A stretch of DNA of 25,626 nucleotides from a virus, in the IMG/VR virus record IMGVR_UViG_3300009285_001944, positions 1-25,626 of that record, one strand, 5' to 3'. The notes beneath the pieces were generated by a model that worked only from the letters and a program-made list of their open reading frames with translations, made no database searches and was not told the DNA's origin. The translations under genes and the position numbers were made by a program. Of this stretch, positions 1-13,257 are shown one piece after another. Position 1 is the first letter of the stretch; every line of letters starts with the position of its first letter.

Positions 1-2130
1 CGCATTTTCCGCACCGTCTCGCGGCGGGTGGCGCTGTACCGCGAGATGGGCGACGACCCCGTCGCGGCGGCTATCATGCAGGCCATCACCATGACGCTGA
101 TGGGGTACGGCTGGTACACCGAAGCCGGGGGCGAGAAGACGAGCGCGGACGAGGCGGCGGCGGAATTTATCGAACAGGCCAGGGACGATATGTCGCTGAC
201 CTGGAACGATTTAATCTCTAACGCGCTCTTCATGCTCCAGTACGGATTCCAACTCGGCGAGACGGTGTACAAGAAGCGCAACGGCGAGCAGCCGCTACGG
301 ATAGAAGAATCCCCGCCCCTTTCCGGGGGCGGCCCGGCCCAAAGCGCGGCGCAGGCGGAGGACCGCCCGGCCAGCAAATATGACGACGGGCGTATCGGAT
401 GGCGCAAGGTAATTTTCGTCGCGCCCGAAACCCTGACGCCGGGGAACGAGTGGGTATTCGACGCCCACGGCGGGTTGCGCGGGTTCAACCAGACCGCGCC
501 GCCCGACTACCGAACCGTTTCCGTCCCTATTGACAAGACGATTCTATTCCGCACGACGACGCAGAAAGGCAACCCCGAAGGCGAGTCCCTGTTCCGCAAG
601 ATGTACTCGGCCTGGTTCCTGAAGAAGAACCTGGAAGAAGTCGAGGCTATATCGGCGGAGCGGCTCGGCGCAGGGCTGCCGATAGCGTATCTCGGCAAGG
701 ATGTCGGCAAGGGGACGGACTCGAACTCAGACCTATCCGTGATCAAGGGTATCGTCCGCAACATTCGCGCGGACGAGCAAGCCGGGATAGTCCTGCCGTG
801 GGCCAAGATGGGCGCGGGGGCGGAGCCGGGCAAGGGTGTGCTGCTGGAACTCCTGTCGCCGCCAACGCGCGGGAACGTGGACTTCAATGCGACGATTACG
901 CGACACGAGCAGCGCATGGCGATGGTTGGTTTGGCGCAGTTCATCCACCTGGGAATGAACCAGGTCGGCGCGCGGGCGCTCGGCGAGAGTTCGCAGGACT
1001 TCTTCACGACGGCGGTATCGGCCTGGGCCGACGCGCTGGCCGAAACGCTCCAGCGGTTCATGGTCGAGCGGCTTATCCGCCTGAATTACTTCCCCGGTCT
1101 GACAGGCATGCCGCTCCTGAAGCACGAGACTATCGGCATGGCGTCTCTGGCGGGGGTGGCCGACTACGTGAACAAACTCGCGGGCGCGGCCATTATCAAC
1201 TACTCGACCGACCTGGAAGACCGCCTCTTGGAGATGGCAGAACTCCCGACGCCCGACCGGACGGCGACGCTGACGATGCCTGCGCCCGCGGCGACGCCCG
1301 AAGTCGCGCCGGGGACGGGGACACAGGCGGGGCTGGATAAGGGCGCGGGGGCGAGTGATAACGCGGCGGCGCTGCGTCTGCTGGCGTTTTGGGAAGCGGA
1401 GGCTTTTCAAGCCGACAAGCGCGGGCAGGGCAAGGCGGGGGCGAAAACGAAAGCCATCGTGACCGTCAACCGTTACCAGGACGCGCTAACGAGCGGATAC
1501 GACGACTGGAGCGAGGACCTGGCGGCGGACCTGGCGGAAGCGGACGAGGATAAGCGCGACGAACTTATCGCGGCGGCGCTGCTGACGCTGCTGGCGCTCC
1601 TGGACGGCCTCGGCAAGCGTTATCTGCCGGAGGCTATAGAACTCGGACTCGCGGGGGAGTTGGGGACGGCGGAGATATACAGTGGACTGGCGGCGGCGCT
1701 GACGGCAAACGAGACCTACTTGACGAATTCACTCATCCCGGACATCCGCGCGAAACTCGCGGCGGCTCTGCTCGACCCGGACGTGAAGGCGGCGCTGGCA
1801 GTAGGCGGGAAGACGGCGGCGGCGGCGCTCAACGGGGTGTTGGATACGCTCGGCGCGCGCGTCTCGCTCTACGCGGGTCAGTGGTGGGACATCTATAACC
1901 TGACTGTGGGTCTCGCCGCCGACGAAGCGGGCGACGGTGTGGACTGGTTTCTAGACCCGCGCGCGCGCCATTGCGCTGATTGCCCGGCCTACGGGAGCGA
2001 GAGCGGAACGCACTACGCTTCTTATGCGGACATGCTCGCGGCGACAGGCGGGAAGGCTCCGGCGCGCGGCGTCGAATGCGGCGGGAATTGCCGTTGCGAA
2101 CTGAAACGCTCTCCGAAAGGCGCGGCCTAA
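1..2130 (+). CDS. Phage portal protein (Mu gp29/DUF935-like) with C-terminal MuF-like module, 5' partial
   Basis: The portal forms the ring at one capsid vertex through which DNA enters and leaves. The reading frame is open from base 1 (RIFRTVSRR precedes a GTG at 28), so the true start is upstream of the window. The N-terminal two thirds resemble Mu-like portals: repeated Met/Ala-rich helices, a GxSLFRKMY-type segment near bases 580-610 and an AERLGAGLPIAYLG segment. The last ~70 residues carry the Cys/His pattern of the MuF minor head family: DPRARHCADCPAY, then GVECGGNCRCEL. In Mu these are two proteins (gp29 and gpF); here one frame covers both. A Pro/Gly/Ala-rich insertion at 307-390 sits between portal segments. 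The portal call is firm; that the C-terminus works as a MuF ejection/minor head domain is inference. Confidence 0.85.
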   Translation, partial: RIFRTVSRRVALYREMGDDPVAAAIMQAITMTLMGYGWYTEAGGEKTSADEAAAEFIEQARDDMSLTWNDLISNALFMLQYGFQLGETVYKKRNGEQPLRIEESPPLSGGGPAQSAAQAEDRPASKYDDGRIGWRKVIFVAPETLTPGNEWVFDAHGGLRGFNQTAPPDYRTVSVPIDKTILFRTTTQKGNPEGESLFRKMYSAWFLKKNLEEVEAISAERLGAGLPIAYLGKDVGKGTDSNSDLSVIKGIVRNIRADEQAGIVLPWAKMGAGAEPGKGVLLELLSPPTRGNVDFNATITRHEQRMAMVGLAQFIHLGMNQVGARALGESSQDFFTTAVSAWADALAETLQRFMVERLIRLNYFPGLTGMPLLKHETIGMASLAGVADYVNKLAGAAIINYSTDLEDRLLEMAELPTPDRTATLTMPAPAATPEVAPGTGTQAGLDKGAGASDNAAALRLLAFWEAEAFQADKRGQGKAGAKTKAIVTVNRYQDALTSGYDDWSEDLAADLAEADEDKRDELIAAALLTLLALLDGLGKRYLPEAIELGLAGELGTAEIYSGLAAALTANETYLTNSLIPDIRAKLAAALLDPDVKAALAVGGKTAAAALNGVLDTLGARVSLYAGQWWDIYNLTVGLAADEAGDGVDWFLDPRARHCADCPAYGSESGTHYASYADMLAATGGKAPARGVECGGNCRCELKRSPKGAA

Positions 2131-2142
2131 AAAAAGACGGGC

Positions 2143-2171
2143 TTTACTTTTCCGGTAAAAGGGAATAGAAT
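2143..2171 (+). promoter_or_regulatory. Candidate sigma70-type promoter
   Basis: TTTACT at 2143-2148 (4/6 to TTGACA) is followed after exactly 17 bases by TAGAAT at 2166-2171 (5/6 to TATAAT). It lies just after the portal stop in the only sizeable gap of the head module, so it could start a transcript near 2178. This is a pattern match only; a host with different sigma-factor preferences would not use it. Confidence 0.45.
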
Positions 2172-2177
2172 TCGCGT

Positions 2178-2259
2178 AACAGGCCGGACTCGGTTCGGCA
2201 AGCAGGCGGAATATCTGTGCCGCCCCTCCCTTACGCGGGAGCGGGCGGCTTTTCGTTTT
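2178..2259 (+). ncRNA. Candidate small RNA or attenuator leader
   Basis: Between the candidate promoter and the terminator lies about 80 bases with no convincing ORF but clear folding potential. A hairpin GCCGGAC/GTTCGGC (2183-2199, one G-U pair, 3-base loop) comes first. GGCGG at 2205-2209 can pair with CCGCC at 2220-2224, which is also the left arm of the terminator, so the two pairings are mutually exclusive. This is the layout of either a short free RNA or a leader that decides read-through into the downstream head genes. No known riboswitch or sRNA family was recognised. Confidence 0.35.
2219..2259 (+). terminator. Rho-independent terminator
   Basis: The left arm GCCGCCCCTCCC (2219-2230) pairs with GGGAGCGGGCGGC (2237-2249) as 12 base pairs with one bulged C, around the loop TTACGC. 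It is followed by TTTTCGTTTT. It sits 12 bases before the next start codon, an odd place for a plain terminator, which supports attenuation. Confidence 0.75.
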
Positions 2260-2271
2260 ACGGGAGCGAAG

Positions 2272-2562
2272 ATGGACATCAACCAGTTTCTACAGTGGGT
2301 CGCCTCGGCGGGCGGCGCGGCGGTGCTGGTCTCGTTCTTAGCCGAACGCTTTCCAGCCTTCCAAAAACTCTCTTCACAGGCGAAGGGCCTCACGCAGGCC
2401 GGAGCCTGTATCGTCCTCGCCATCGTCGCGTATGCCGTGATGACCTACATCCCGCCTGACACTTTGAAAACTCTGGCCCCCTACTTCCAAATCGTCTACG
2501 GCGTCGGCGCGACTTGGGTCGCCAACCAGATAGCCCACAAAGCCGACCCCCATACCGGCTGA
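2272..2562 (+). CDS. Small membrane protein, holin-like in shape
   Basis: A 96-residue protein with hydrophobic stretches at about residues 8-25, 41-59 (AGACIVLAIVAYAVMTYI) and 68-82, and a hydrophilic end with His and Lys. This size and layout fit phage holins or other small inner-membrane phage proteins, but no family was recognised and it sits among head genes, not beside a visible endolysin. GGGAG at 2262-2266 gives a ribosome binding site for the ATG. Its stop is one base before the next start codon, so it is probably translated with the zinc ribbon gene. Expression may depend on read-through of the terminator immediately upstream. Confidence 0.6.
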   Translation: MDINQFLQWVASAGGAAVLVSFLAERFPAFQKLSSQAKGLTQAGACIVLAIVAYAVMTYIPPDTLKTLAPYFQIVYGVGATWVANQIAHKADPHTG

Positions 2563-2563
2563 C

Positions 2564-2854
2564 ATGGCGACTTACGCTGCGCGCTGCCCGCACTGTGGGA
2601 AGATGGAAGTCGAGAAGGCGATGACGGCTCCCTGGCCGTCCTGCCCCATCTGTGGGCGCGCACTGACGAAGATATTCACCCCCAACGCCGTCATCTTCAA
2701 CGTGACCGGCTTCTACGCCACGGACTACGCGCGTTTCGAGTCGCAGGTCGGCCCGGAGCGCGCGGCCCGTTTCCGGGCGCAGAAGGCCGAGGCCGAGAAG
2801 CGCGCGGCGACGGGGCGGCTGACGCAGTACGAGAAGGCACTGGAGTCCATTTGA
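2564..2854 (+). CDS. FmdB-type zinc ribbon protein
   Basis: A 96-residue protein whose N-terminus holds two Cys-x-x-Cys knuckles (C8/C11 and C27/C30), predicted to bind one zinc ion. The spacing, followed by a hydrophobic segment and VTGFYATDYAR, matches the FmdB family, where a GSGFYxTDY-like tail follows the zinc ribbon. The C-terminus is a charged helix (AEAEKRA). FmdB proteins are described as putative regulators with poorly known function; in a phage head operon it could bind DNA, RNA or a capsid protein. It overlaps neither neighbour, but gaps are one base, indicating translational coupling with the membrane protein and the protease. Confidence 0.7.
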   Translation: MATYAARCPHCGKMEVEKAMTAPWPSCPICGRALTKIFTPNAVIFNVTGFYATDYARFESQVGPERAARFRAQKAEAEKRAATGRLTQYEKALESI

Positions 2855-2855
2855 G

Positions 2856-4322
2856 ATGCCCTACGCTGGCCTACCCGCCGACCAGACCGCGAAATTGGAA
2901 GCCTGCGTCCGGCACGTCATGGCGCAGGGGCGCGACAAGGCCAGCGCGATAGGCATTTGCAGGAGCGCGATGAAGATGAGCAGCACCTACGCTTTCGAGC
3001 CGTTCTCCACTCTGGACGGCGTGTTGAGCGGGAAACCGTTCAAGATGCTACCCATCGGCAAGTGGTATCGGGGAGAGCGGACGCTCGACATCACGCCCGA
3101 CCGCGCGCAGGCCATCGCCGCGAACCTTAAGGCCGGTCTGCCGCGCTTCCGCGTCCCCATCAACGAGAATCACGGCGAAGGCCTCGGCAAGGTCGGGACC
3201 GTCTCGGATGCGGAGTACCTGCCGGACGGGGCGGACGGGCCGGGGCTGTACGCGACGCGGTATGAACTCACCGACGCCGGAAAGAAACTGGTCGCCGATA
3301 AACGCTATGACGCCGTTTCGCCGGAGATGGTCTGGACGCTCAATGACGGCGCGCAATACCAGGACCCGACCACGGGCGCGTATCATGATAACGTCATGGT
3401 CGGGCTAGCCCTGACCGCCGTGCCGTTCTTCGGACACGATAACGTGGCGCTCTTCTCGGCCCATACGCCTGCGGACGGTACGTCGCAGGCGGTGGCGGCG
3501 CTACGGGCGGCGATAGCCGTACATACGAAACACATGGCGAGCGACGCCAAGCCGAGCGCAGCCAGCGCCGCCGAGGCAATGAAGTTTCTCCAGGCGGCGC
3601 TCACGGCCCTCACCGGCGAGGGAGGAGCGGAGACGGAAATGAATCATGTAACCAAGTGGGAAGAATTCAAGGCATGGATTGATAATCTACTCTCTCGCGG
3701 AACGGATACCAACCGCGAGCAGACCGCGACCGACGCCGACCGCAACGAAGGAGACCAGGACATGATCAACCCCATCACCCCCGAGGAATTCGCGGCCCTG
3801 AAAGCCAAGGCGGACGAATCCGCCGCGCTCAAGACCAAAGTCGAGGCGCTCGAAGCGAAGGCGGGCGAGGCAGATAAGTTCAAGGCGGAACTTGTGGCGA
3901 TGAAGACCGCCGCCGACAAGTTCGCCGCGGCCTTCGCCGCCGAACAGAAGGCGCGCCGCCTCGACGCCATCACCGCCGAATGCGAACGCTTCCGCGCGCT
4001 CCCGGCCAAGACCGCCGACCTCGCCGCGTGCCTGTTGGCGCTGGAAGAGAAAGCGCCGGAAGAATTCAAGTTCATCAAGGGCCTGCTGTCCGCGACCGAT
4101 AAAGCCCTCGGCCAATCGGCGCTGTTCGCGCAGATGACGGACGCGCGCGGCGGAAACACGGACGGCGAGCCGGAGACCTTCGACGGCGCGGTCGAGAAGG
4201 TCCTGAAGGACGAATTCAAGGGCGACCGGGCGCAGTACCGCGCCGCGATGACGCGCGCCGAGGCGCTGCACCCGGACCTGTTCTCCGTCTACAAGGCGAC
4301 CGTGGCCGGTCATCGGCGCTAA
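2856..4322 (+). CDS. Mu I-like prohead protease with C-terminal scaffold region
   Basis: Capsid maturation protease of 488 residues. Residues 1-40 are a short helical motif (ACVRHVMAQG, AIGICRSAM) that I recall from other phage head proteins. Residues ~50-205 match the Mu gpI type: VPINENH around H106, a Gly-rich run (GLGKVGTV), RYDAVSPEMVW with S155, then VGLALTAVPFFG. H106 and S155 are the likely catalytic candidates, by analogy only. Residues ~300-390 are Ala/Lys/Glu-rich and strongly helical, as expected for scaffold that fills the prohead before cleavage. In Mu the scaffold (gpZ) is also made separately from an internal start in the protease gene; a well-placed internal start is present here. 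It lies directly upstream of the cement-like and capsid genes. Confidence 0.8.
   Translation: MPYAGLPADQTAKLEACVRHVMAQGRDKASAIGICRSAMKMSSTYAFEPFSTLDGVLSGKPFKMLPIGKWYRGERTLDITPDRAQAIAANLKAGLPRFRVPINENHGEGLGKVGTVSDAEYLPDGADGPGLYATRYELTDAGKKLVADKRYDAVSPEMVWTLNDGAQYQDPTTGAYHDNVMVGLALTAVPFFGHDNVALFSAHTPADGTSQAVAALRAAIAVHTKHMASDAKPSAASAAEAMKFLQAALTALTGEGGAETEMNHVTKWEEFKAWIDNLLSRGTDTNREQTATDADRNEGDQDMINPITPEEFAALKAKADESAALKTKVEALEAKAGEADKFKAELVAMKTAADKFAAAFAAEQKARRLDAITAECERFRALPAKTADLAACLLALEEKAPEEFKFIKGLLSATDKALGQSALFAQMTDARGGNTDGEPETFDGAVEKVLKDEFKGDRAQYRAAMTRAEALHPDLFSVYKATVAGHRR
3762..4322 (+). CDS. Nested scaffold protein from an internal start (Mu gpZ-like)
   Basis: Inside the protease frame, AAGGAG at 3748-3753 lies eight bases before an in-frame ATG at 3762, giving a 186-residue protein beginning MINPITPEEF. 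It is almost all helix-forming charged residues and Ala, the expected composition of a scaffold core. A second possible start is ATG 3639 (MNHVTKWEEF) behind GGAG at 3629-3632. Internal scaffold starts are established for Mu I/Z and lambda C/Nu3; use here is inferred from the ribosome binding site. Confidence 0.55.
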   Translation: MINPITPEEFAALKAKADESAALKTKVEALEAKAGEADKFKAELVAMKTAADKFAAAFAAEQKARRLDAITAECERFRALPAKTADLAACLLALEEKAPEEFKFIKGLLSATDKALGQSALFAQMTDARGGNTDGEPETFDGAVEKVLKDEFKGDRAQYRAAMTRAEALHPDLFSVYKATVAGHRR

Positions 4323-4358
4323 TCCGCGATGTACTACCAGACTACGGAGGAATGAACA

Positions 4359-4784
4359 ATGGCAAACTACAACGACCTGGGCATCGCGGACGTAAGCTTC
4401 CTGGCCGCGACTAACCTGTCCCTGAATCAGTATTACTTCGTCATCCCCGGTTCCGTGGCGGGCGAAGTCAACGTGGCGAATGGGGCCAGCAACCCGACCC
4501 CGATGGGCATTCTCCAGAACGCGCCCTCGGCGGGGCAGAAAGCGCGCGTGCGCGTCTTGGGCTTCTCGAAATTGTTCTGCGTGACGCCCTCGGGCTGCGG
4601 CATCGGCTACGGGCGCTACGTCACGGCCAACGCCTCCGGGCAGGGCATTCCGACCGCGACCGAAAACGGTTCGGCGGTGCTGGCGCGCAACTTCGACACG
4701 GCTGCGCCCGTCTCGGCTTCTCGCTTCCTGAAGGTCTTCGTCAACTGCGCCGGTGTCTCGCCCTGCGCGGTCTCGGCGTCGTAA
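4359..4784 (+). CDS. Capsid cement/decoration-like protein (DUF2190-like)
   Basis: A 141-residue, beta-rich protein between the protease/scaffold and the major capsid gene, the standard place for a head-stabilising protein. The pattern LNQYYFVIPG, PMGILQNAPSAGQKARVRVLG and YGRYVTANASGQG resembles small phage proteins of the DUF2190 type, which trimerise on the capsid surface. It contains several Cys (residues ~74, 79, 128, 135), unusual for this class. CGGAGGA at 4346-4352 supports the ATG. Role is inferred mainly from position and fold-like pattern. Confidence 0.6.
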   Translation: MANYNDLGIADVSFLAATNLSLNQYYFVIPGSVAGEVNVANGASNPTPMGILQNAPSAGQKARVRVLGFSKLFCVTPSGCGIGYGRYVTANASGQGIPTATENGSAVLARNFDTAAPVSASRFLKVFVNCAGVSPCAVSAS

Positions 4785-4817
4785 CGGGACGCCTGGTCAA
4801 GAAAAGGAGATAACGAC

Positions 4818-5744
4818 ATGGCATCCCCTACCTATCCCCAGTTACACCCGGTAGACGTTCCGCTGACGAACATCAGCATTTCCTATCGCAATTCGGCCTA
4901 CGTCGCGGACGAAATCTTTCCCGCCGTCCCCATCAACCGCGTCACCGGGCGGTACTTCGTTTACACGAAGGCGGACTGGTTCCGGCGCGAGGCGGGTGTG
5001 CGCGCTCCCGGCACACGCGCGCCGCGCGGCGACTACGGACTTTCGACCGCGCAATACGTCTGCATCGAATACGCGATGGCGAAGGGCATCACCGACGAAG
5101 ACGTGGACAACGCCCTCGACCCGCTCCAGCCGCTTTCGGACGGCACGGAGTGGGTGACGAATCAAATTCTTCTCCAGCGCGAATACGATGTATCGGCGCT
5201 GGCCTTCGGGACCGGTTGGAGTTCGAGCGCAACGCCGACCACGTTGTGGAGTGCGGACGCCGCCGACCCCGTGGGCGACGTAGAGACCGGGCGCGACGCC
5301 GTGGTTAAGGCCATCGGCCAGGAGGCGAACAAGGGCGTGATGGGGCGCGGGCTGTGGCGCTACGCCAAGCAGCACCCGGACATCGTTGACCGCCTGAAGG
5401 GGTCAGCGGGTCCGGCGAATCCGGCCATCGTCACGGTGCAGGCCGTCGCGGCGCTGTTCTCACTCGAAAAACTTCTCATCGGCACGGCCATCTCCGACAC
5501 CGCCGCCGAGGGCGCGTCCTCGACGCTGGCCTACTTGTGGGGCAATCATCTGCTGCTCGCCTACGTCGCGTCCAATCCTTCTCTCTTGAATCCGAGTGCG
5601 GGCTACACCTTCAACTTCCGCAACCGCGAAGTGACGCGCTTCCGTGAAGACCAGGAGCGGCAGGACGTGGTGGAGTGCCGCCAGAACTGGGATTCGGTCA
5701 TCTCGGCGGCGGACGCGGGGTACTTGGTCAAGTCTGCCGCCTAA
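4818..5744 (+). CDS. Major capsid protein
   Basis: A 308-residue protein that would form the icosahedral shell. It starts after a strong AAGGAG site. The N-terminus (LTNISISYRNSAYVADEIFP, then VTGRYFVYTKADWFR) is typical of a group of HK97-fold capsid proteins, as is a middle helix bearing WVTNQILLQREYDVSALAF. The late segment RNREVTRFREDQERQDVVECRQNWD resembles the conserved P-domain/C-terminal part. There is no N-terminal delta-domain long enough for scaffolding, consistent with a separate scaffold in the protease gene. Position after protease and cement genes agrees. Identification is by composition, length and order. Confidence 0.8.
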   Translation: MASPTYPQLHPVDVPLTNISISYRNSAYVADEIFPAVPINRVTGRYFVYTKADWFRREAGVRAPGTRAPRGDYGLSTAQYVCIEYAMAKGITDEDVDNALDPLQPLSDGTEWVTNQILLQREYDVSALAFGTGWSSSATPTTLWSADAADPVGDVETGRDAVVKAIGQEANKGVMGRGLWRYAKQHPDIVDRLKGSAGPANPAIVTVQAVAALFSLEKLLIGTAISDTAAEGASSTLAYLWGNHLLLAYVASNPSLLNPSAGYTFNFRNREVTRFREDQERQDVVECRQNWDSVISAADAGYLVKSAA

Positions 5745-5755
5745 TCGCGGCTTTG

Positions 5756-5803
5756 CCCCGGACATCTCGCGCCCTACCCGGCGCGCAGCGGCATGAGCCG
5801 GGG
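5756..5803 (+). other. Nested stem-loop in the gap after the capsid gene
   Basis: CCCCGG (5756-5761) pairs with CCGGGG (5798-5803), enclosing a perfect 6-bp hairpin CGCGCC/GGCGCG (5768-5785, loop CTACCC). No T-run follows, so it is not a standard intrinsic terminator. It ends just before the ribosome binding site of the next gene and could protect or process the abundant capsid mRNA. Confidence 0.4.
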
Positions 5804-5820
5804 AGAAAGGAACGTCAGTC

Positions 5821-6435
5821 ATGCCAGCTATCAAGCACCGTCTTGACGTCCGCGCTCCTAACTTCTTGGCGCTGACCGGCCTCAACCGCGACCTGGTTTT
5901 CCAGTGGCAGGACTTCTACCTGGCGGCGGCTTCGCTCTCCGTTTCGTCCTCTCCGCTCTCCACCTGCCTGACCGTGGCTACGCTCTCCGGCTCTCACCTA
6001 TCGGCGCTCCGCTTCGTTTCGACATCGCACGCGGGCGGGACCTTCCCTGTTTGGGTGACGCACCCTGTGCCTCAGGACGCGGCCATTAGCGGCCCGGCCT
6101 CCGGCTCCGGGACGGTCTACATTGACTGGACCGACCCGACCACCGCGAACGCCGTGGCCGTCATCGCGGCCTCGCTCTATCTCGTCCCGAACGGCTCGGC
6201 AGTGAGCGACTCCGGTACGAGCACCCTGGCGACGGCCTGCGCCACGCTGACCGGGACGAGCGCTAGCGAACTCCAGTCCACGAGCCTGATGAGTTTCAAC
6301 GCGCCCACGACGCGCGCCGGATTCTTCGCGCTCAAGGTGGCGGTGGCGGCGGCGGACGCGGCGAATACGAGCGGCTCGAACTTCCACCTGCTCTCGGCGC
6401 GGCTGCGCTACAAGGCTGATCGCATCGGGAGTTAG
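5821..6435 (+). CDS. Putative virion protein, beta-rich (unknown family)
   Basis: I do not recognise this 204-residue protein. It is rich in Ser, Thr, Ala and Val with alternating hydrophobic patterns expected of beta-sandwich structural proteins, has few charges, and no signal peptide or catalytic motif. It follows the capsid gene and precedes other small beta-rich proteins, so a minor capsid, decoration or head-fibre role is plausible. AAAGGA about ten bases before the ATG supports the start. Confidence 0.6.
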   Translation: MPAIKHRLDVRAPNFLALTGLNRDLVFQWQDFYLAAASLSVSSSPLSTCLTVATLSGSHLSALRFVSTSHAGGTFPVWVTHPVPQDAAISGPASGSGTVYIDWTDPTTANAVAVIAASLYLVPNGSAVSDSGTSTLATACATLTGTSASELQSTSLMSFNAPTTRAGFFALKVAVAAADAANTSGSNFHLLSARLRYKADRIGS

Positions 6436-6440
6436 CGGCA

Positions 6441-6463
6441 CGGGCCTCTAGCGCGTTGGCCCG
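6441..6463 (+). other. Stem-loop abutting a ribosome binding site
   Basis: CGGGCC (6441-6446) and GGCCCG (6458-6463) form a perfect 6-bp stem with an 11-base loop. Its 3' base touches the GGAGG (6463-6467) used by the next gene, so folding could affect initiation at the GTG start. Confidence 0.35.
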
Positions 6464-6472
6464 GAGGCAACC

Positions 6473-6775
6473 GTGGCAATCATCGTCCCCAACCGCAGCC
6501 TTATCCTGGACTCGTCGGCGTGCGTGCCGGGGTCGGAAGGCGTGTGGGTCTGGATAGGCATTCAGACCGACGTGTCCCCCGGCACGGCGACTTGGTACGC
6601 TTCGGCCTCGCCTATCCCCGGACACGAAATGATGGTTCTCGCGCGCGCCCCCCTGTGCTCGGATATGTTCGGCCCCTATTGTTCCGCCAGCGGGTTATAC
6701 GCGCGCGTTGGCGCGGGGGCGTGCGCGGTGCTGTGGTTCACGGAACGGAAGGAGAGCAACAATGGCAGCGGTTGA
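6473..6775 (+). CDS. Small hypothetical virion-region protein
   Basis: A 100-residue protein of unknown family starting with GTG five bases after GGAGG. It is beta-rich with Trp residues (GVWVWIGIQT, GTATWYASA) and four Cys. Its 3' end overlaps the start of the next gene by 14 bases, which indicates co-translation. A structural or decoration role is suggested only by location. Confidence 0.55.
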   Translation: MAIIVPNRSLILDSSACVPGSEGVWVWIGIQTDVSPGTATWYASASPIPGHEMMVLARAPLCSDMFGPYCSASGLYARVGAGACAVLWFTERKESNNGSG

Positions 6776-7103
6776 CGCGCAAAAAGGGAATTACGTCTAT
6801 CAGACCTCGGCCTCCCTCGCGGCGGCGGGGTCGGCCACGAGCGGGAGTTTCCCGACTTTTGGTTACGCGCGCATCGTCGGACTCCATATCTCGAACGCCT
6901 CGGCTAAGGCGGCGAGCGGACTGCGTATCTGGCAGAGCGGCGACGGCGGAGTGAACTTCGACTATTTCACCGACTTCGTGCCCTCGGCCTCGTCGGGATC
7001 GGCCTTCTCCGTCGAGGTCATCGGCAATGCGGGCAAAATTGACTACGTTACCGATGGCGCGGCGAGTATCCTGCGCTCGAACTGGTGGCTGAGGCCGGTC
7101 TAA
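6762..7103 (+). CDS. Small beta-sandwich-like virion protein
   Basis: Start chosen at ATG 6762 because GGAAGGAG lies just before it; the frame stays open upstream but without a ribosome binding site. The 113-residue product has the pattern ARIVGLHISNAS, LRIWQSGDGGVNFDYF, FSVEVIG, seen in small phage decoration or fibre-tip proteins with a jelly-roll-like fold. Its stop codon shares a base with the next ATG (TAATG), so the two are translationally coupled. Function is not established. Confidence 0.6.
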   Translation: MAAVDAQKGNYVYQTSASLAAAGSATSGSFPTFGYARIVGLHISNASAKAASGLRIWQSGDGGVNFDYFTDFVPSASSGSAFSVEVIGNAGKIDYVTDGAASILRSNWWLRPV

Positions 7104-7897
7104 TGGCAATTCAGGTCGGGCGCGAGCGGCGCAGCGCGGGTCAGGGCGCGGGAGTTTACGGGGCGCTCATCCGCCGTGACGGATGGGGGCTGGCGGGCGG
7201 GTATGCGCGCAAGGTTCTCTCCGTAGCGCCGGCGAATCTTTACGCCTACTGGCCCATGACCGACGCGCCGGACGGGGCTAGTCCGGTGGACCTCGGCCCG
7301 AACGCTCTCACCACGGCTTGCCTGGCGGGGACCGTTACGCTCGGCGCGCCGGGTATGGATGGAGGGACTTCATTTTACTTCGCCGCCGCGGCGAACTCGC
7401 GGATGACCTTTGTCGGGGGCGCGTTCAATACCGTCGCCAACGGGTCGGAGGGAACAATAGCGGCCTGGGCCAAGGTTTCGGACTCTAGCATCTGGACGGA
7501 TGGCGCGCTGCGCCATGTGCTGCATATGCAGTCCGGCATTCCGAACGAACTTGCGCTCTCTAAAGGACCATCGAATAATACGCTGCGCTTTAATTACACT
7601 ACGGGGAGCAATGTTAACGTGGTCTCTCCGGCCTTTGGGCCGACAAACGAGTGGTTTCATATCGCGCTAACTTACTCTTCGACTGGGAGCGCAGCCATCA
7701 CCTACGGCAACGGCGCTTCGCTCAACAACATCACGGTTGCGGCTCCGTGGTCGGGCACTCCGAACGCAACGCAGAGTTTCATCGGGGACAAAAGTAATGC
7801 CGGGGCCAATCCCTGGAAGGGCTGGCTCCAGCATATCGCCTTTTGGGATACGCCTTTGTCGAGTGATACGATTCTGTGGCTGGCGGATAGGGATTGA
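7103..7897 (+). CDS. LamG/concanavalin A-like domain protein, candidate head decoration
   Basis: The 264-residue product has, after ~40 residues of linker, a typical LamG-type lectin/glucanase-like fold: LYAYWPMTD, an SPVDLGPNALT segment, GTIAAWAKVSD, NEWFHIALTYSSTGS and a closing GWLQHIAFWDTPLSSDTI. Such domains bind carbohydrates or proteins without catalysis. Start ATG 7103 overlaps the upstream stop. Placed between capsid and connector genes, it most simply is a virion surface protein that lets particles stick to polysaccharide. The domain call is good; the location on the head rather than the tail is inferred from gene order. Confidence 0.7.
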   Translation: MAIQVGRERRSAGQGAGVYGALIRRDGWGLAGGYARKVLSVAPANLYAYWPMTDAPDGASPVDLGPNALTTACLAGTVTLGAPGMDGGTSFYFAAAANSRMTFVGGAFNTVANGSEGTIAAWAKVSDSSIWTDGALRHVLHMQSGIPNELALSKGPSNNTLRFNYTTGSNVNVVSPAFGPTNEWFHIALTYSSTGSAAITYGNGASLNNITVAAPWSGTPNATQSFIGDKSNAGANPWKGWLQHIAFWDTPLSSDTILWLADRD

Positions 7898-7899
7898 CG

Positions 7900-8439
7900 A
7901 TGGCTTACGCAAGCGCGAGTGATGTCGCTGGATTGACCCGAAACTTAATAGCGCCGGGGTCTACATTTACGACCTCGACTTCTCCGACGCTCGCGTCGGT
8001 CAACGGCTGGCTCTCGGCAGGGAGCGCGCTCATTGATACGCGCCTGGCGAGTGCGGGCTACGGACCAATCCCCGCGGGCAACGTCGCCTATGATTTAGCC
8101 GTCCAGGCAAATGCGGCTTTCGGGGCATGGTGGGCGGAACGCTCACGGACGAATGCGCGCGTGGCGACCAACGAACGCACGCGCGCCGATTATTTCAAGA
8201 AGGACTTCAACGACCTGATGGAAGGCCTGGTATCGCTCGACCTGTCGCGCAGCGGCGTCTCGCAAACGTCCGTGGCCTACGCCGGGGGGATAAGCGTCTC
8301 GGACAAGGACACAGTGGAGGCGGACGGCGACCGCGTGCAGCCGCGTTTCGTGCGCGGCATGTTCGAGAATCCCGAAGCGCCGCGGCCCACGGCGGGCCAG
8401 GCGGGAGACCCAGAAAGCCGGGCGTCGGACTCTTCCTGA
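7900..8439 (+). CDS. Head-tail connector protein (DUF1320/gp6-like)
   Basis: The 179-residue product begins MAYASASDVAGL and is mostly helical for its first ~115 residues (VNGWLSAGSALIDTRLASAGYG, YDLAVQANAAFGAWWAERSRT). That pattern, a helical bundle starting with a YASxxDVxxL motif, is usual in phage head completion/adaptor proteins that sit under the portal. The last ~60 residues are polar and probably disordered. ATG 7900 is preferred over the in-frame TTG at 7894. Order (after capsid, before gp10-like neck) supports it. Confidence 0.6.
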   Translation: MAYASASDVAGLTRNLIAPGSTFTTSTSPTLASVNGWLSAGSALIDTRLASAGYGPIPAGNVAYDLAVQANAAFGAWWAERSRTNARVATNERTRADYFKKDFNDLMEGLVSLDLSRSGVSQTSVAYAGGISVSDKDTVEADGDRVQPRFVRGMFENPEAPRPTAGQAGDPESRASDSS

Positions 8440-8450
8440 GGCGATAGGCC

Positions 8451-8690
8451 ATGCTGAAACCTTACTTGCTCATCTACCAGACGACCGCGACCATTCCTGG
8501 CCTGGCTATCGAGCGGCATTTCACGGAAGACGAAGCCGAGGCGTCGCGCGCCGCCAACGCCGATAGTATCGGCTGGCACGCCGTGGCGCTGCTGACGGAC
8601 GAGGGGGTGACGATTATCGGGAGCGGTATGACGGAGACAGGGACGGGGAGCGCGATGAAGGCGAAGCGAAAGGCGAAAGGAGAAGCGTAA
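8451..8690 (+). CDS. Hypothetical 79-residue protein
   Basis: No family recognised. The first ~60 residues look like a compact alpha/beta unit (PYLLIYQTTATIP, ERHFTEDEAEASRAANA, GWHAVALLTDEGVTIIG), and the last ~15 are Lys/Ala-rich and basic. It lies immediately upstream of the first glycosyltransferase with a five-base gap, so it is probably co-expressed with it. Confidence 0.5.
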   Translation: MLKPYLLIYQTTATIPGLAIERHFTEDEAEASRAANADSIGWHAVALLTDEGVTIIGSGMTETGTGSAMKAKRKAKGEA

Positions 8691-8695
8691 AGGCG

Positions 8696-10012
8696 ATGGC
8701 CCTGCGCGGAATGCACGTCATCTATTTGTACGCCGACACGGAAAACGAGTGGAATTGCTCTCAGTGGCGGGCGAAGATTCCGGCGGATAGCATAAACGCC
8801 GAACACGAGGCCGGGCGCTGCCCACACACGGCGCGGCTGTTCCTCATGCCGACCGCGCTAGACTGGGCACACCCGCAAGTCAATGCGCTCCTGGGCGCGG
8901 CGGACGTTATCATATTTCAGCGCAACGTCCTCATCCCGCCGGTGTGGGAGGCGATGGACTACTGGCGCGCTATCGGGAAGGCGGTGCTCGTGGACCTGGA
9001 CGACCACTATCCCGGACTCCCGCCGTCGAATCCGGCCTACAACTACTGGATTCGTAACGGTCCGGGGCTGGAGCCGGAGCCGGTCGCGGCGCTCGCCGAG
9101 GGGCTGCGGCACGCGGACGGGCTGACCTCGCCGTCGAAGGTTATCCTTAAGGATTGGGAGCATATCGTCCCCGGCTACTGGCTGCCCAACTGGACTTTCC
9201 GAGCGTGGTACGCCCCCTTCGGCCAAAAGCCTATGGGAGCGGGCGACTTCTTGATTGATTACGAGGCCAAGGAAGTGAATGGCAAGCAGACGCCCACGCT
9301 GCGGGCGCTCCCGCGCCCGAACTCGGAAGGGACGATTATCCTGGGTTGGGGCGGGAGTATCAGTCACGTAGACTCGTGGCTGGCCTCGGGCGTGATGGAC
9401 GCGCTGACGCGGCTGTTCGAGAAGTATCCGCAACTGCGTTTGAAATTCTGCGGGCACGAGGCGCGCCTGGACCGCTGGCTCGCGCCGTTCGGCGAGCGCG
9501 TACTGCGCCAGGGCGGGGTCGGGCCGAAGGACTGGCCGCATGTTGTTTCGACGTTCGACATCGGATTGGCTCCGCTGGACACGCGGCCTATCCCGCCGTG
9601 GCGCGAGGGCGCGCCAGTGGCGTCTTACGACGAGCGGCGGTCGTGGCTGAAGGGCGTGGAGTACCTCTCGGCGGGGGTTCCGTGGGTGGGGAGCAAGTCG
9701 CTGACCTACAACGACCTGGCGCGATGGGGAACGCTCGTGGACAATACGCCGGAAGCGTGGTTCGGAGCGCTGGACTGGATGTTAGCGAACCTCGCGCGCG
9801 AGAAGGAAAAAGCCTGGGACCGGCGGCGATGGGCTTTGAAGCGGGTCGCCTTCGAGCCGAATGTGAGCAATTACTTCGATACCTTCGGGCGCGTGCTGGC
9901 GGACAAGGCCGTGCGCGAGGGGTCGCAACTGCCGGGCATCTACTACGTCGAGCCGGAATCCCCGAATAAAAAGGAGTCAGAGCATGTTACCGCTGATGCC
10001 GTCGCAGCCTGA
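8696..10012 (+). CDS. GT-B-fold glycosyltransferase (GT4/group 1-like)
   Basis: A 438-residue enzyme predicted to transfer a sugar from a nucleotide donor. The N-terminal half contains VIIFQRNV and VLVDLDDHY, the acidic strand end seen in many group 1 glycosyltransferases. The C-terminal half has the donor-binding Rossmann pattern: TIILGWGGSISHVDSW (start of the second domain), LRLKFCGHE, HVVSTFDIGLAPLDTRP, then WLKGVEYLSAGVPWVGS, equivalent to the K-x-x-E-x-x-x-x-G-x-P motif near the nucleotide site. Length is normal for the fold. It lies between the connector and neck genes, so it would be made with virion proteins. Donor and acceptor cannot be read from sequence. Start could also be ATG 8711. 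Confidence 0.75.
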   Translation: MALRGMHVIYLYADTENEWNCSQWRAKIPADSINAEHEAGRCPHTARLFLMPTALDWAHPQVNALLGAADVIIFQRNVLIPPVWEAMDYWRAIGKAVLVDLDDHYPGLPPSNPAYNYWIRNGPGLEPEPVAALAEGLRHADGLTSPSKVILKDWEHIVPGYWLPNWTFRAWYAPFGQKPMGAGDFLIDYEAKEVNGKQTPTLRALPRPNSEGTIILGWGGSISHVDSWLASGVMDALTRLFEKYPQLRLKFCGHEARLDRWLAPFGERVLRQGGVGPKDWPHVVSTFDIGLAPLDTRPIPPWREGAPVASYDERRSWLKGVEYLSAGVPWVGSKSLTYNDLARWGTLVDNTPEAWFGALDWMLANLAREKEKAWDRRRWALKRVAFEPNVSNYFDTFGRVLADKAVREGSQLPGIYYVEPESPNKKESEHVTADAVAA

Positions 10013-10202
10013 TAAGGCGCGCGCCGAAGCCGCGGTCTTAGGAGCCGCGCGCGGGTGGTACGCAGACGTGGACCTGAACTATCAGGGTGTCAATCTCGGA
10101 GACGCGCTGACGTATGACGTGCAACAAATTTTCGGACGGTTGTGGGCGCGTTATTTCATGGGACAGGAGCAGGCCAATGGAAACGCCAGCACCAACGCCT
10201 AA
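9984..10202 (+). CDS. Hypothetical 72-residue protein between the glycosyltransferases
   Basis: AAGGAG at 9971-9976 with seven-base spacing supports ATG 9984. The gene overlaps the end of the first glycosyltransferase by 29 bases and the start of the second enzyme by 26, so three genes are chained by overlap. The protein is mixed helix (KARAEAAVLGAARGWYADVD, YDVQQIFGRLWARYF). Family unknown; a small subunit or acceptor is possible but unsupported. Confidence 0.5.
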   Translation: MLPLMPSQPDKARAEAAVLGAARGWYADVDLNYQGVNLGDALTYDVQQIFGRLWARYFMGQEQANGNASTNA

Positions 10203-11418
10203 GCCCGCGCTGCTCGTCTCCGGCGCGCCGGTCACGCAGCCGCTTTGGGCGGGATTGTCCGAGACCTATCACCTGGTCTTCGCCCACCCGCAGGCGGCTC
10301 AGGTCGCGCGCGAGGTCGGCATCGCCTCGGCCTCGGCGCTGGCCGACTACCTGACCGGGGACGCGAAGGAATCCGCCGACAACGATGCGGCGCTTCTTAC
10401 GGCGCGGGTCGTGAACGCGCTCCCGGACATCTCGCGGCGCGTAGGCGCGACCGTCGCGCCGACCGGCCCCGTAGAACTCAATGGGCGCTTCGGGGCGTGG
10501 TTCGCGGGTTACGTGCAGTTCCAAATGGCGCAATTCGCGCAGATGTTCGCCTGCCTGGACTTGATGGCGGCGCGCGAACGTCTCGCGGGCTGCCTGGTCC
10601 ACGAAGACGTGACGCCGATGGCGCGCGCGCTCGTGGGGTGGTTTCGGGCGCGGGAACTCCCTTCCGTCCACCTGCCGCACGCGGCCTGCCATCTACTGCC
10701 CGGCGTCGCGGATATACACCGCGAGACGCGCGCCGACTACGTTCTGGCAAGCGGCGGCTACATGGCGCAGTTCTACGCGGCGGTCGGCGTCCCGGAGGAT
10801 AGAATCCGTATCGTGGGCGTCCCGGCGTGGGACGGCCTCTATACCGGCCTACCGCCGGGGAAGGCCGAGGCGCGGCGCGTGCTGAAAATAGATAACGCGC
10901 GCGTCATCCTGTACGGCGCGTCCTGGCCGCAGACCACTTCCCTGCGCGGCGGCGGGGAAGCCGAGGCCGAAGCCGCCTGGCGCGCCGTGCTGGCGCTGGC
11001 GCACGCGTGGGAGGCCGTAGTGATGTGTTCCGTCCACCCGAACGACGGCAGGCCGGTGGAGCAGTATTACGCCGAGACGATGAAGGCGGCGGGAGTGCCA
11101 GGGCTGGTGACACGCTTCCACACCAACTATCTCGTGCGGGCGGCGGATGTGCTCATCGCTCAGGGACCGAGTAACTTCTGCGTCTCGACGGCTATCCAGG
11201 GCTTGCCGTCCTGCTACATCCAGACGGAGGGTTTCGACTTCGCCCACCCCCTGCCCCCGCGCGCGGACGCGGACGGGCTGAAAGACGCGGCGGAAGCGGC
11301 CCTGGCCGAGGGCCTGCCGTGGGACGAGTTCGCGACGCTCTACAACGCGGCTCACGAAACGCGCGGCGGGGCAACGGAGAAGGCAGTTGTTGCCGTCAAG
11401 GAAATATGCCGATGGTAA
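10177..11418 (+). CDS. GT-B-like enzyme (CDP-glycerol transferase / UDP-GlcNAc 2-epimerase-like fold)
   Basis: Start chosen at ATG 10177 (METPAPTPKP) behind AGGAG; the open frame upstream to 10114 lacks a site. The 413-residue product resembles the GT-B group that includes CDP-glycerol glycerophosphotransferases, capsule polysaccharide transferases and UDP-GlcNAc 2-epimerases. Visible features are VHLPHAACHL, an ILYGASWPQTTSL strand-loop, VVMCSVHPNDGRP (HPxxxxP motif), TNYLVRAADVLIAQGPS, and a late IQGLPSCYIQTEGF. Exact chemistry is uncertain. It is unlike the first glycosyltransferase in sequence, so the pair probably performs two successive steps rather than being a duplication. Confidence 0.65.
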   Translation: METPAPTPKPALLVSGAPVTQPLWAGLSETYHLVFAHPQAAQVAREVGIASASALADYLTGDAKESADNDAALLTARVVNALPDISRRVGATVAPTGPVELNGRFGAWFAGYVQFQMAQFAQMFACLDLMAARERLAGCLVHEDVTPMARALVGWFRARELPSVHLPHAACHLLPGVADIHRETRADYVLASGGYMAQFYAAVGVPEDRIRIVGVPAWDGLYTGLPPGKAEARRVLKIDNARVILYGASWPQTTSLRGGGEAEAEAAWRAVLALAHAWEAVVMCSVHPNDGRPVEQYYAETMKAAGVPGLVTRFHTNYLVRAADVLIAQGPSNFCVSTAIQGLPSCYIQTEGFDFAHPLPPRADADGLKDAAEAALAEGLPWDEFATLYNAAHETRGGATEKAVVAVKEICRW

Positions 11419-11915
11419 TTACGATTCGGTCGGACGGGAAACTCGAAGCCTACGCCGAGCGGATGAGCAAGTCTCCCGCCTGGCTTCCGCGTCAAATTGA
11501 CCTGGCGCTCTCGGCCCTCGGCCCGACGCTCATGAGTCGGATGCGGACGGCGCTCATGGCGAATCGCTACACGGGCGGGCTGGAAGAATCCGTGCGCGCC
11601 GATTACGATAGGGGAGCGAAGCGCCTGACGGTCGGTCCGACGAAGAAGACCGCCGACGGGAAATGGGACCGGGGAATGATTCTAGAACTCGGCACGCGGC
11701 CTATCCCGCGCGCGCCCTGGACGCCCATCCGCCTTTGGGCCAACTTCCGGGGCCTGCCCGCCTTCCCGGTGTGGTGGAAGATTCGGACCAAGGGCGTGGC
11801 GGCGCACCCGTTCCTTGACCGGACGCTGGCCGCGTCCGAAGCCGACATCCGCGCCATGACAGAGCATTTAGTAGACGTGCTGGCGCGGACGGCGGTAGGT
11901 GAGGTGACGCCGTGA
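11406..11915 (+). CDS. Head-tail joining/neck protein (HK97 gp10-like)
   Basis: Start ATG 11406 follows AAGGA and overlaps the preceding gene by 13 bases. The 169-residue product shows the HK97 gp10 pattern: an N-terminal helix pair, TGGLEESVRADY, a glycine/basic strand region RLTVGPTKK, MILELGTRPIP, then KGVAAHPFLDRTLAAS and a terminal helix. Such proteins form the neck ring between connector and tail. It resumes the normal late gene order after the glycosyltransferase insertion. Confidence 0.75.
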   Translation: MPMVITIRSDGKLEAYAERMSKSPAWLPRQIDLALSALGPTLMSRMRTALMANRYTGGLEESVRADYDRGAKRLTVGPTKKTADGKWDRGMILELGTRPIPRAPWTPIRLWANFRGLPAFPVWWKIRTKGVAAHPFLDRTLAASEADIRAMTEHLVDVLARTAVGEVTP

Positions 11916-12358: not shown

Positions 12359-12784
12359 ATGCCTCAGGCGCACGGACGGAATGCAACAGTGTTTGTATGG
12401 GACTCGGCGGGGGCGTGCCAGAACTTGAGCGGCGACCACAACAATATTTCTCTAACATGGCCGCGCGACAACCCGCAGCGCACGACCTTCGGGAAGGACA
12501 CCCACCAGCGCATGTCCGGTATCCGGGACGCCACGCTGACGGGCGCGGGCATCTGGAACACGGGGAGCGGCAGCATTGATGCCGTGCTGTCGGCCATCAT
12601 GGCGGCGAGCCTGAACACGCTCGTCCACTATGCGCCGGGCGGCTCCATCACCGGCTGCCCGCTCTACTCGGCCTGCTACTTGCTCTCGCAGTACCAGATT
12701 ACCGGGCCGTTGAATGGGCCGGTGGGCGTGTCCTACACGTTCCAAATTGCCTCGGGGTCGGTCACGGTCGGCACTTCGGGCTAA
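12359..12784 (+). CDS. Major tail tube protein
   Basis: A 141-residue protein after a strong GGAGGAG site, as expected for an abundant product. It has strands ATVFVWDSAG and NISLTWPRD, a conserved-looking loop TTFGKDTHQRMSGIRDATLTGAGIWN, and a closing VGVSYTFQIASGSVTVG, fitting tail tube folds. It lies directly upstream of the frameshifting chaperone pair and tape measure, the invariant order in long-tailed phages. Confidence 0.75.
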   Translation: MPQAHGRNATVFVWDSAGACQNLSGDHNNISLTWPRDNPQRTTFGKDTHQRMSGIRDATLTGAGIWNTGSGSIDAVLSAIMAASLNTLVHYAPGGSITGCPLYSACYLLSQYQITGPLNGPVGVSYTFQIASGSVTVGTSG

Positions 12785-12795
12785 GAGGAGTCAAC

Positions 12796-13257
12796 ATGGA
12801 CCACGATACGGAGTTATCCGGTCTCGTGTCCGTCCTCTCCACCGCGTTGTCGGCGGGGAACTATCGCGGAGCGATGGAATCTATCGCCGCGCAGTGGATC
12901 GGGCGCTCGCCGGTCGGGACGGTGTACTGTACGCTTCCCGACTTTCCGGGAACGTGGGTCCGCTTCGCCACGCGCGGGTATCCGTTCGCCCTGCGGCGGC
13001 TATGGGCCGAAACGAAAGATGACCGCACGACGATGGAAGCGATTATCCTGCCGCGCGTCGAGGCGTGGAATTTCGTCTCGGCGACGAACGGACTTTCCCT
13101 ACCCCTTCCGCCGAAAGAACAGCGCCCGTTGGAATGCCTGGACGACCTCGACGACCCGCTGCTCGTTTGGCTCATCAACGCCTTCTGGCAGTGGTGGCGT
13201 GCGGGATTACATTTGCCCCGCCCAAACTCGTTGCCGCCCTCGCGCGCTACGTCATAG
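12796..13257 (+). CDS. Tail assembly chaperone, short form (lambda gpG-like)
   Basis: The 153-residue zero-frame product begins after GAGGAG. Its first 100 residues are mixed alpha/beta with PVGTVYCTLPDFPGTWVRF and ALRRLWAETKDDRTTMEAI; it ends in a hydrophobic helix (LLVWLINAFWQWWRAGL) and a short Pro/Ser-rich tail. Chaperones of this type coat the tape measure and recruit tube subunits and are not kept in the virion. Identity rests on its place between tail tube and tape measure and on the frameshift signal near its end, rather than on sequence similarity I can recall. Confidence 0.7.
   Translation: MDHDTELSGLVSVLSTALSAGNYRGAMESIAAQWIGRSPVGTVYCTLPDFPGTWVRFATRGYPFALRRLWAETKDDRTTMEAIILPRVEAWNFVSATNGLSLPLPPKEQRPLECLDDLDDPLLVWLINAFWQWWRAGLHLPRPNSLPPSRATS

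Follow-up and report, generated by a model that had tools for sequence, protein, structure and literature searches.

Two predicted GT-B enzymes among the late genes of a clade of uncultured tailed phages and their possible role in virion glycosylation

The stretch of DNA analysed here, referred to as the window, is a virus record of 25,626 bases and comprises a late-gene segment of a tailed phage with portal, capsid, neck, major tail, and tape-measure genes (Table 1). Upstream of the neck gene lies a cassette of three genes coding for two predicted GT-B enzymes, GT1 and GT2, and a small protein between them. The initial annotation described these genes as chained by overlaps and this is borne out by the open reading frames: GT1 and the small ORF overlap by 29 bases, the small ORF and GT2 (ATG 10177) overlap by 26 bases, and the same genes are found in the same order in relatives. 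In addition, the end of GT2 overlaps the start of the neck gene (ATG 11406) by 13 bases, and an AGGAG-type, Shine–Dalgarno-like site precedes each of the starts of GT1, the small protein, and GT2. As the three genes recur in the same order in relatives they are not chance ORFs; this possibility is also ruled out by their conservation, their dN/dS values (see below), and the Shine–Dalgarno-like sites.

It had further been stated that head–tail genes are usually contiguous and that the cassette splits the connector from the neck gene. The first statement holds for Roseobacter phage RDJL Phi 2, an annotated relative, in which gp64 abuts the Neck1 protein gp65. The second holds for the neck gene, which is identified by its profile match, but the connector is named by synteny alone and a gene for a 79-aa protein also intervenes. 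The label connector is used by position only, because no profile named a connector in the profile search of this protein. The small head protein precedes the capsid gene, and paralogues of it are found behind the capsid gene in L005, L007, L010, and L059. At the position of the LamG gene relatives encode other proteins, which are often repeat-rich.

Table 1. Features of the window and of related contigs (L numbers). In the insert rows the last codon, the insert, and the next codon are parted by slashes.
Feature	Position	Strand	Evidence or sequence
Small head protein (scaffold or decoration), candidate acceptor	4359..4784	+	phrog_673 E 0.005
Major capsid protein (lambda gpE-like), candidate acceptor	4818..5744	+	phrog_1005 E 2.4e-81
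LamG/ConA-like lectin-domain protein, hypervariable capsid–connector interval	7085..7897	+	PF13385 E 1.2e-13
181-aa conserved protein, "connector" position (synteny name)	7894..8439	+	orthologues in related loci covering the place
79-aa protein, connector–GT1 gap	8451..8690	+	ORF; similar small ORFs at the same place in L005, L006
GT1, predicted GT-B enzyme, GT4 type	8696..10012	+	AlphaFold pLDDT 81; BshA Z 26.7
Small conserved protein, putative partner, 72 aa	9984..10202	+	profile matches in the GT1–GT2 interval through most of the clade
GT2, predicted GT-B enzyme, TagF/2-epimerase-like	10177..11418	+	AlphaFold pLDDT 87.6; PF04464; NeuC, TarL folds
Neck/tail completion protein	11406..11915	+	phrog_5 E 6.3e-7
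Major tail protein, candidate acceptor	12359..12784	+	phrog_10528 E 1.7e-15
L006 GT1 insert	7570		TCT/TGAAAAAAGAAAAAATCT/CCT
L121 GT1 insert	8034		TCG/TGATCG/GAA
L119 GT1 insert	2442		TCC/TGAAGAGGAGTCC/GCG
L054 GT1 insert	15023		ACT/TGACATAACA/GAA
L115 GT1 insert	3670		TCT/AGACATAACT/GAG
L017 GT1 insert	9055		TCT/TGACT/GAA
L016 GT1 insert	9055		TCT/TGAATTT/GAG
L059 GT1 insert	19302		TGG/TGACAAGG/AAC
L052 GT1 insert	11919		ACT/TAGCC/GAG
L019 GT1 insert	9016		AGG/TAAAGT/TGC
L016 GT2 insert	11441		CAT/TAGCAT/GAG
L121 GT1, second interruption	8537-8650		about 110 bases
Homing-endonuclease-type (LAGLIDADG, HNH, GIY-YIG) or TnpB genes	L010 8111-8947, L017 8390-8953, L059 18113-19075, L016 10459-10950	-	
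Homing-endonuclease-type or TnpB genes (continued)	L019 8037-8750, L054 13574-14812, L005 12505-13365		
L117 group I intron in major capsid gene	3686-3868		RF00028, 56 bits
L121 extra glycosyltransferases and methyltransferases	3-4103		
L121 Ser-Pro repeat protein region	4207-7077		
L058 Ser-Pro repeat protein regions	5475-6401 and 7115-11209		
L050 inverted segment	6389-10148		
L035 portal matches	4067-7094		two ORFs, different frames
L039 portal matches	5053-7526		two ORFs, different frames
L019 neck gene, broken frame	12381-12798		about 7 codons lost

The structural model of GT1 was built from 12 family members and is GT-B over its full length. Its best match is BshA (rmsd 3.3, 325 residues aligned), and PimB′ and MshA lie within 1 to 1.1 Z of it, so that the closest solved folds are retaining GT4-type enzymes. 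VIA-align gave further GT-B families at similar Z and therefore no single family is claimed from the fold alone. The Glyco_trans_1_4 profile matches 7 of the 12 family members. Invariant in the family alignment are a GWGGS.SHVD-type stretch and K319..E322, a putative active-site motif. In the same alignment the canonical EX7E motif is incomplete: the second Glu (E322) is invariant, and the first is replaced by Arg314, for which reason we call GT1 GT4-like and do not place it in GT4. On the model GT1 is predicted to be a GT-B enzyme resembling GT4-type transferases. A tblastn search of 50,697 phage records returned remote matches to GT1 only, and none to GT2, among cultured phages.

The model of GT2 is GT-B as well. 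Its top structural matches are UDP-GlcNAc 2-epimerases with Z 20–21.5 (NeuC 21.5), and TarL reaches Z 19.1. At the sequence level, PF04464 (CDP-glycerol glycerophosphotransferase, TagF-type) matches 10 of 11 members (best E 3.1e-7; the GT2 of the window scores 17.4 bits, below the Pfam cut-off of 22.1), and in the PDB the sequence matches TagF alone, in a region carrying the motifs G.P..D.L and Y..TW. H168 and H287, invariant in the GT2 family, are candidates for the catalytic His pair of TagF, but the TagF alignment spans residues 183–252 only. The Epimerase_2 profile matches 2 of the 11 members (best E 5.8e-5). GT2 is thus predicted to be of another branch than GT1, with TagF-like sequence and a 2-epimerase-like fold. 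Structure prediction and fold search agree with the earlier view that both enzymes are GT-B, and also the view that they are dissimilar stands: the profiles place them in different families (Glyco_trans_1_4 versus PF04464), and an origin by duplication is rejected.

Since UDP-GlcNAc 2-epimerases have the fold nearest to that of GT2, its role in sugar transfer is less certain than that of GT1. GT2 may instead transfer a group linked to CMP or CDP, such as a polyol-phosphate, or produce a donor sugar. In the latter case GT2 would be a 2-epimerase-like enzyme supplying GT1 and there would be a single transfer step. The best fold matches and the two Epimerase_2 matches point in this direction, but the PF04464 matches in nearly all members and the TagF match with its two motifs speak against it, and we regard it as rather unlikely; it would be compatible with a virion protein as the target.

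The 72-aa protein carries the motif gVdLgd.m.YDvlrv.gR. Profile matches show it between the two enzyme genes throughout most of the clade and other members have positional equivalents; profile searches returned no known family or relative. A hydrophobic stretch typical of a membrane protein was looked for in GT1, GT2, and the small protein, and none was found.

Relatives were gathered by scans of viral contigs with GT1, GT2, or the capsid protein as queries, and about 26 distinct lineages were found to carry GT1. The cassette is present in all contigs that cover the site and have at least about 43% capsid identity; those of this group without it end before the site. GT1 and GT2 were undetected in more distant capsid relatives (about 30–37%) whose sequence extends at least 5.5 kb past the capsid gene. 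L025 and L117, which look like exceptions, are members of the clade with a shortened or intron-split capsid gene (in L117 a group I intron, Table 1). The initial annotation had proposed to survey whether the cassette co-occurs with particular capsid genes, and the survey ties it to the virion genes of one clade. Judged from these sequence comparisons, the cassette is a core feature of this clade. The identities of GT1 and of the capsid protein correlate (r 0.65, 19 contigs; an approximate value, with GT1 of one contig in the wrong frame), and both enzymes are under purifying selection with dN/dS of about 0.07–0.15 (for GT1 of the pair L002/L011 dN 0.13 versus dS 1.5). In the deepest lineages, L119 and L122, the cassette is located slightly downstream, with a tail-terminator-like gene ahead of it and the major tail gene behind. 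Scans of genome contigs for a prophage or host yielded no relative.

Some local rearrangements were also observed. The segment of L050 that holds tail terminator, neck, GT2, and GT1 runs in the opposite orientation to its neighbours, and a search of its ends for inverted repeats of at least 10 bases found none. In L019 the frame of the neck gene is broken.

The GT1 gene of the window is intact. In 10 of the 26 lineages, however, GT1 is interrupted within one conserved N-terminal stretch with the consensus ADSxxEWNCSEWRC, and one further insert was found in GT2 of L016 (Table 1). The inserts have 5–18 nt with lengths in all three frames, and in 10 of the 11 an in-frame stop directly after the take-off codon opens the insert. 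The last triplet of the insert is identical to the preceding codon in four cases, shares two of three bases in six, and one base in the remaining one. This resemblance of take-off and landing site (25 of 33 bases versus 14.1 in shuffles, p 0.0002) was assessed post hoc and on few lineages. In L119, the one case with a strong stem–loop, a perfect hairpin (−20.9 kcal/mol, z −5.6) carries the stop in its loop. Without its insert L119 reads ADSAREWNC and is thereby identical to L122, where this stretch is uninterrupted. L016 and L017 are sister lineages (GT1 64% identical) broken at the same codon, and their coding stretch before the break shows mainly synonymous change (pS 0.86, pN 0.13), as if it were still translated into enzyme. 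Among the capsid, connector, tail-terminator, major tail, portal, and scaffold genes of relatives no stop-led inserts were found. In some contigs the portal matches are divided between two ORFs that have no internal stops; in L035 and L039 the two ORFs are in different frames.

Reassigned stop codons are rejected as the cause of the breaks, because TGA, TAG, and TAA all occur and the insert lengths fall in three frames. Sequencing error is unlikely as a general cause, because the same inserts were found in separate datasets (L017/L018 and L119/L120). A homing-endonuclease-type gene or TnpB accompanies the cassette in 5 of the 10 interrupted lineages and in 1 of the 16 intact ones (Fisher p 0.018), a post hoc comparison on few lineages which includes the gene of L016, recognised by eye only. 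In L005 a gene of this kind sits behind the neck gene. GT1 of L121 carries a second interruption (Table 1), and GT1 of L019 contains a further insert, which is intron-like by eye only, as an Rfam search of it gave no match.

The breaks in GT1 could be loss of function through nuclease-repair scars, translation could initiate downstream of the break, or an unseen repair could act at the RNA level. We tentatively put forward another possibility, namely that ribosomes hop the stop-led micro-inserts and produce a continuous enzyme, and that the inserts are immunity scars against homing endonucleases or introns which target the motif. TCG-TGA-TCG in L121 and CAT-TAG-CAT in GT2 of L016 would be candidates for natural "stop hops"; natural in-frame stop-hops are not known according to a review (PMC5009743). 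The precedent is T4 gene 60, with a homing endonuclease gene, a stop-led gap, matched codons, and a stem–loop (PMC3014915), where the gap may have guarded against nuclease cleavage (PMC5009743). The likeness to T4 gene 60 and mobA comprises the stop after the take-off codon, in some inserts a landing codon matched to it, in L119 the hairpin, and the nearby homing endonuclease gene (PMC3014915; PMC5009743). On the contrary, the gap of gene 60 has 50 nt and the GT1 inserts 5–18 nt, one and the same motif is hit repeatedly across many lineages, and 7 of the 11 inserts show no more than a partial match of take-off and landing codon. If they are bypassed, they would add many natural short ribosome hops to the very few known so far, and would tie short hops to a recurrent evolutionary cause, the targeting by nucleases.

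The neighbourhood of the cassette in relatives gives a hint to its function. A Methyltransf_24-type gene directly adjoins the cassette in L007, L019, and L059. In the capsid–connector interval L121 and L136 (the record of L058) carry extra glycosyltransferases of families 2 and 17 and several methyltransferases, and L121 and L058 encode Ser-Pro repeat proteins between the capsid and connector genes (Table 1). Their lengths are 308, 956, and at least 1365 aa; the two longer ones are 40–43% Ser, and all three hold long SPSVSPSLSPS-like repeats. Such mucin-like proteins look like acceptors of O-glycans and are candidates only. In the window no methyltransferase adjoins the cassette, and a Ser-Pro protein is missing. 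Because Ser/Thr-rich ORFs are also present in the cassette-free loci L072 and L083, there is no statistical support for such acceptors as a general hallmark of phages with the cassette.

We suggest that the cassette is probably a core late module which glycosylates a virion protein of the phage itself. A late role is argued from the late structural position together with the strict linkage to one virion-gene clade. The initial annotation had proposed virion-protein glycosylation in two successive steps; this target fits the linkage to virion genes and the modification genes and Ser-Pro proteins near the cassette in relatives, but GT2 as a second sugar transferase is less sure. Within virion glycosylation we infer the catalysis, the donor, the acceptor, the order of the steps, and the benefit as follows. 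GT1, a soluble enzyme of GT4 type, most likely adds a sugar from a host nucleotide donor to a surface virion protein, for which the capsid, decoration, tail tube, or a variable fibre protein are candidates. GT2 most likely adds a second group that extends or caps this sugar. The small protein is probably a partner of GT1 and GT2 or an acceptor adaptor, and some relatives may add O-methylation by the neighbouring methyltransferase. The benefit might be a shielding of the particle or a changed surface binding. The Ser-Pro proteins of relatives point to a testable acceptor.

Two other targets have to be considered. The enzymes could alter a surface polysaccharide of the host late in infection, for example to stop progeny from sticking to debris or to exclude other phages. 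In fact the nearest solved folds of GT1 are small-molecule or lipid-linked transferases (BshA, MshA, and PimB′) and GT2 resembles teichoic-acid and capsule enzymes. Nevertheless, we consider this unlikely, as the cassette is strictly linked to one virion-gene clade and has no membrane partner, and as Ser-Pro proteins and extra modification genes occupy the capsid–connector interval of relatives. DNA as the target is disfavoured, in line with the initial annotation. Virus glycosyltransferases that act on hypermodified bases of phage DNA are known (Pyle et al. 2024, cited in PMC12619734), but the cassette sits among late structural genes, and a thymidylate-synthase-type hydroxymethylase was absent from 12 related records (up to 69 kb, possibly fragments) in a search whose control worked, which makes this reading less likely; we regard it as very improbable. 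A TET/JBP search of related records had no match and is uninformative, as its control matched nothing either.

Our preferred reading, the glycosylation of a virion protein, has a counterpart in the mycobacteriophages. The structural operon of Corndog (cluster O) includes genes for three glycosyltransferases and an O-methyltransferase, whose products were not identified in the virion (PMC4351075). Later work reported that enzymes of this kind modify the capsid and the tail tube (PMC11600133, PMC12619734, and PMC11256854, citing Freeman et al. 2023). Corndog and Che8 (cluster F1) have several glycosyltransferases in the virion structural operon, and the window likewise has two glycosyltransferase-type genes there, the reaction of GT2 being less sure. 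In these phages the genes are located between portal and protease, whereas in the window they lie between connector and neck. Moreover, the clade of the window pairs a GT4-type with a TagF-like enzyme and differs by its conserved small protein. The O-methyltransferase of Corndog may have a counterpart in the Methyltransf_24-type gene beside the cassette, which is present in some members of the clade only and absent in the window. No mycobacteriophage homologue of GT1 or GT2 was found in the tblastn search mentioned above. A further comparison is the podovirus ctQWt234 (MW202801.1), in which a GT1-like transferase (profile E 8e-9, 21% identity to GT1) lies beside sugar-type enzymes in the capsid–tail interval; it has no GT2, and its partner genes differ, being annotated as Fe-S oxidoreductase, PhyH, and NodB-like. 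For Corndog and Che8 glycosylation has been reported on proteins, whereas the present clade is uncultured and known here from genes. In our best reading the cassette is a variant of the Corndog/Che8-type virion glycosylation, a modification that we infer for this clade, and the clade suggests that glycosylation of the particle may be among the core traits of some phages rather than a peculiarity of the mycobacteriophages.
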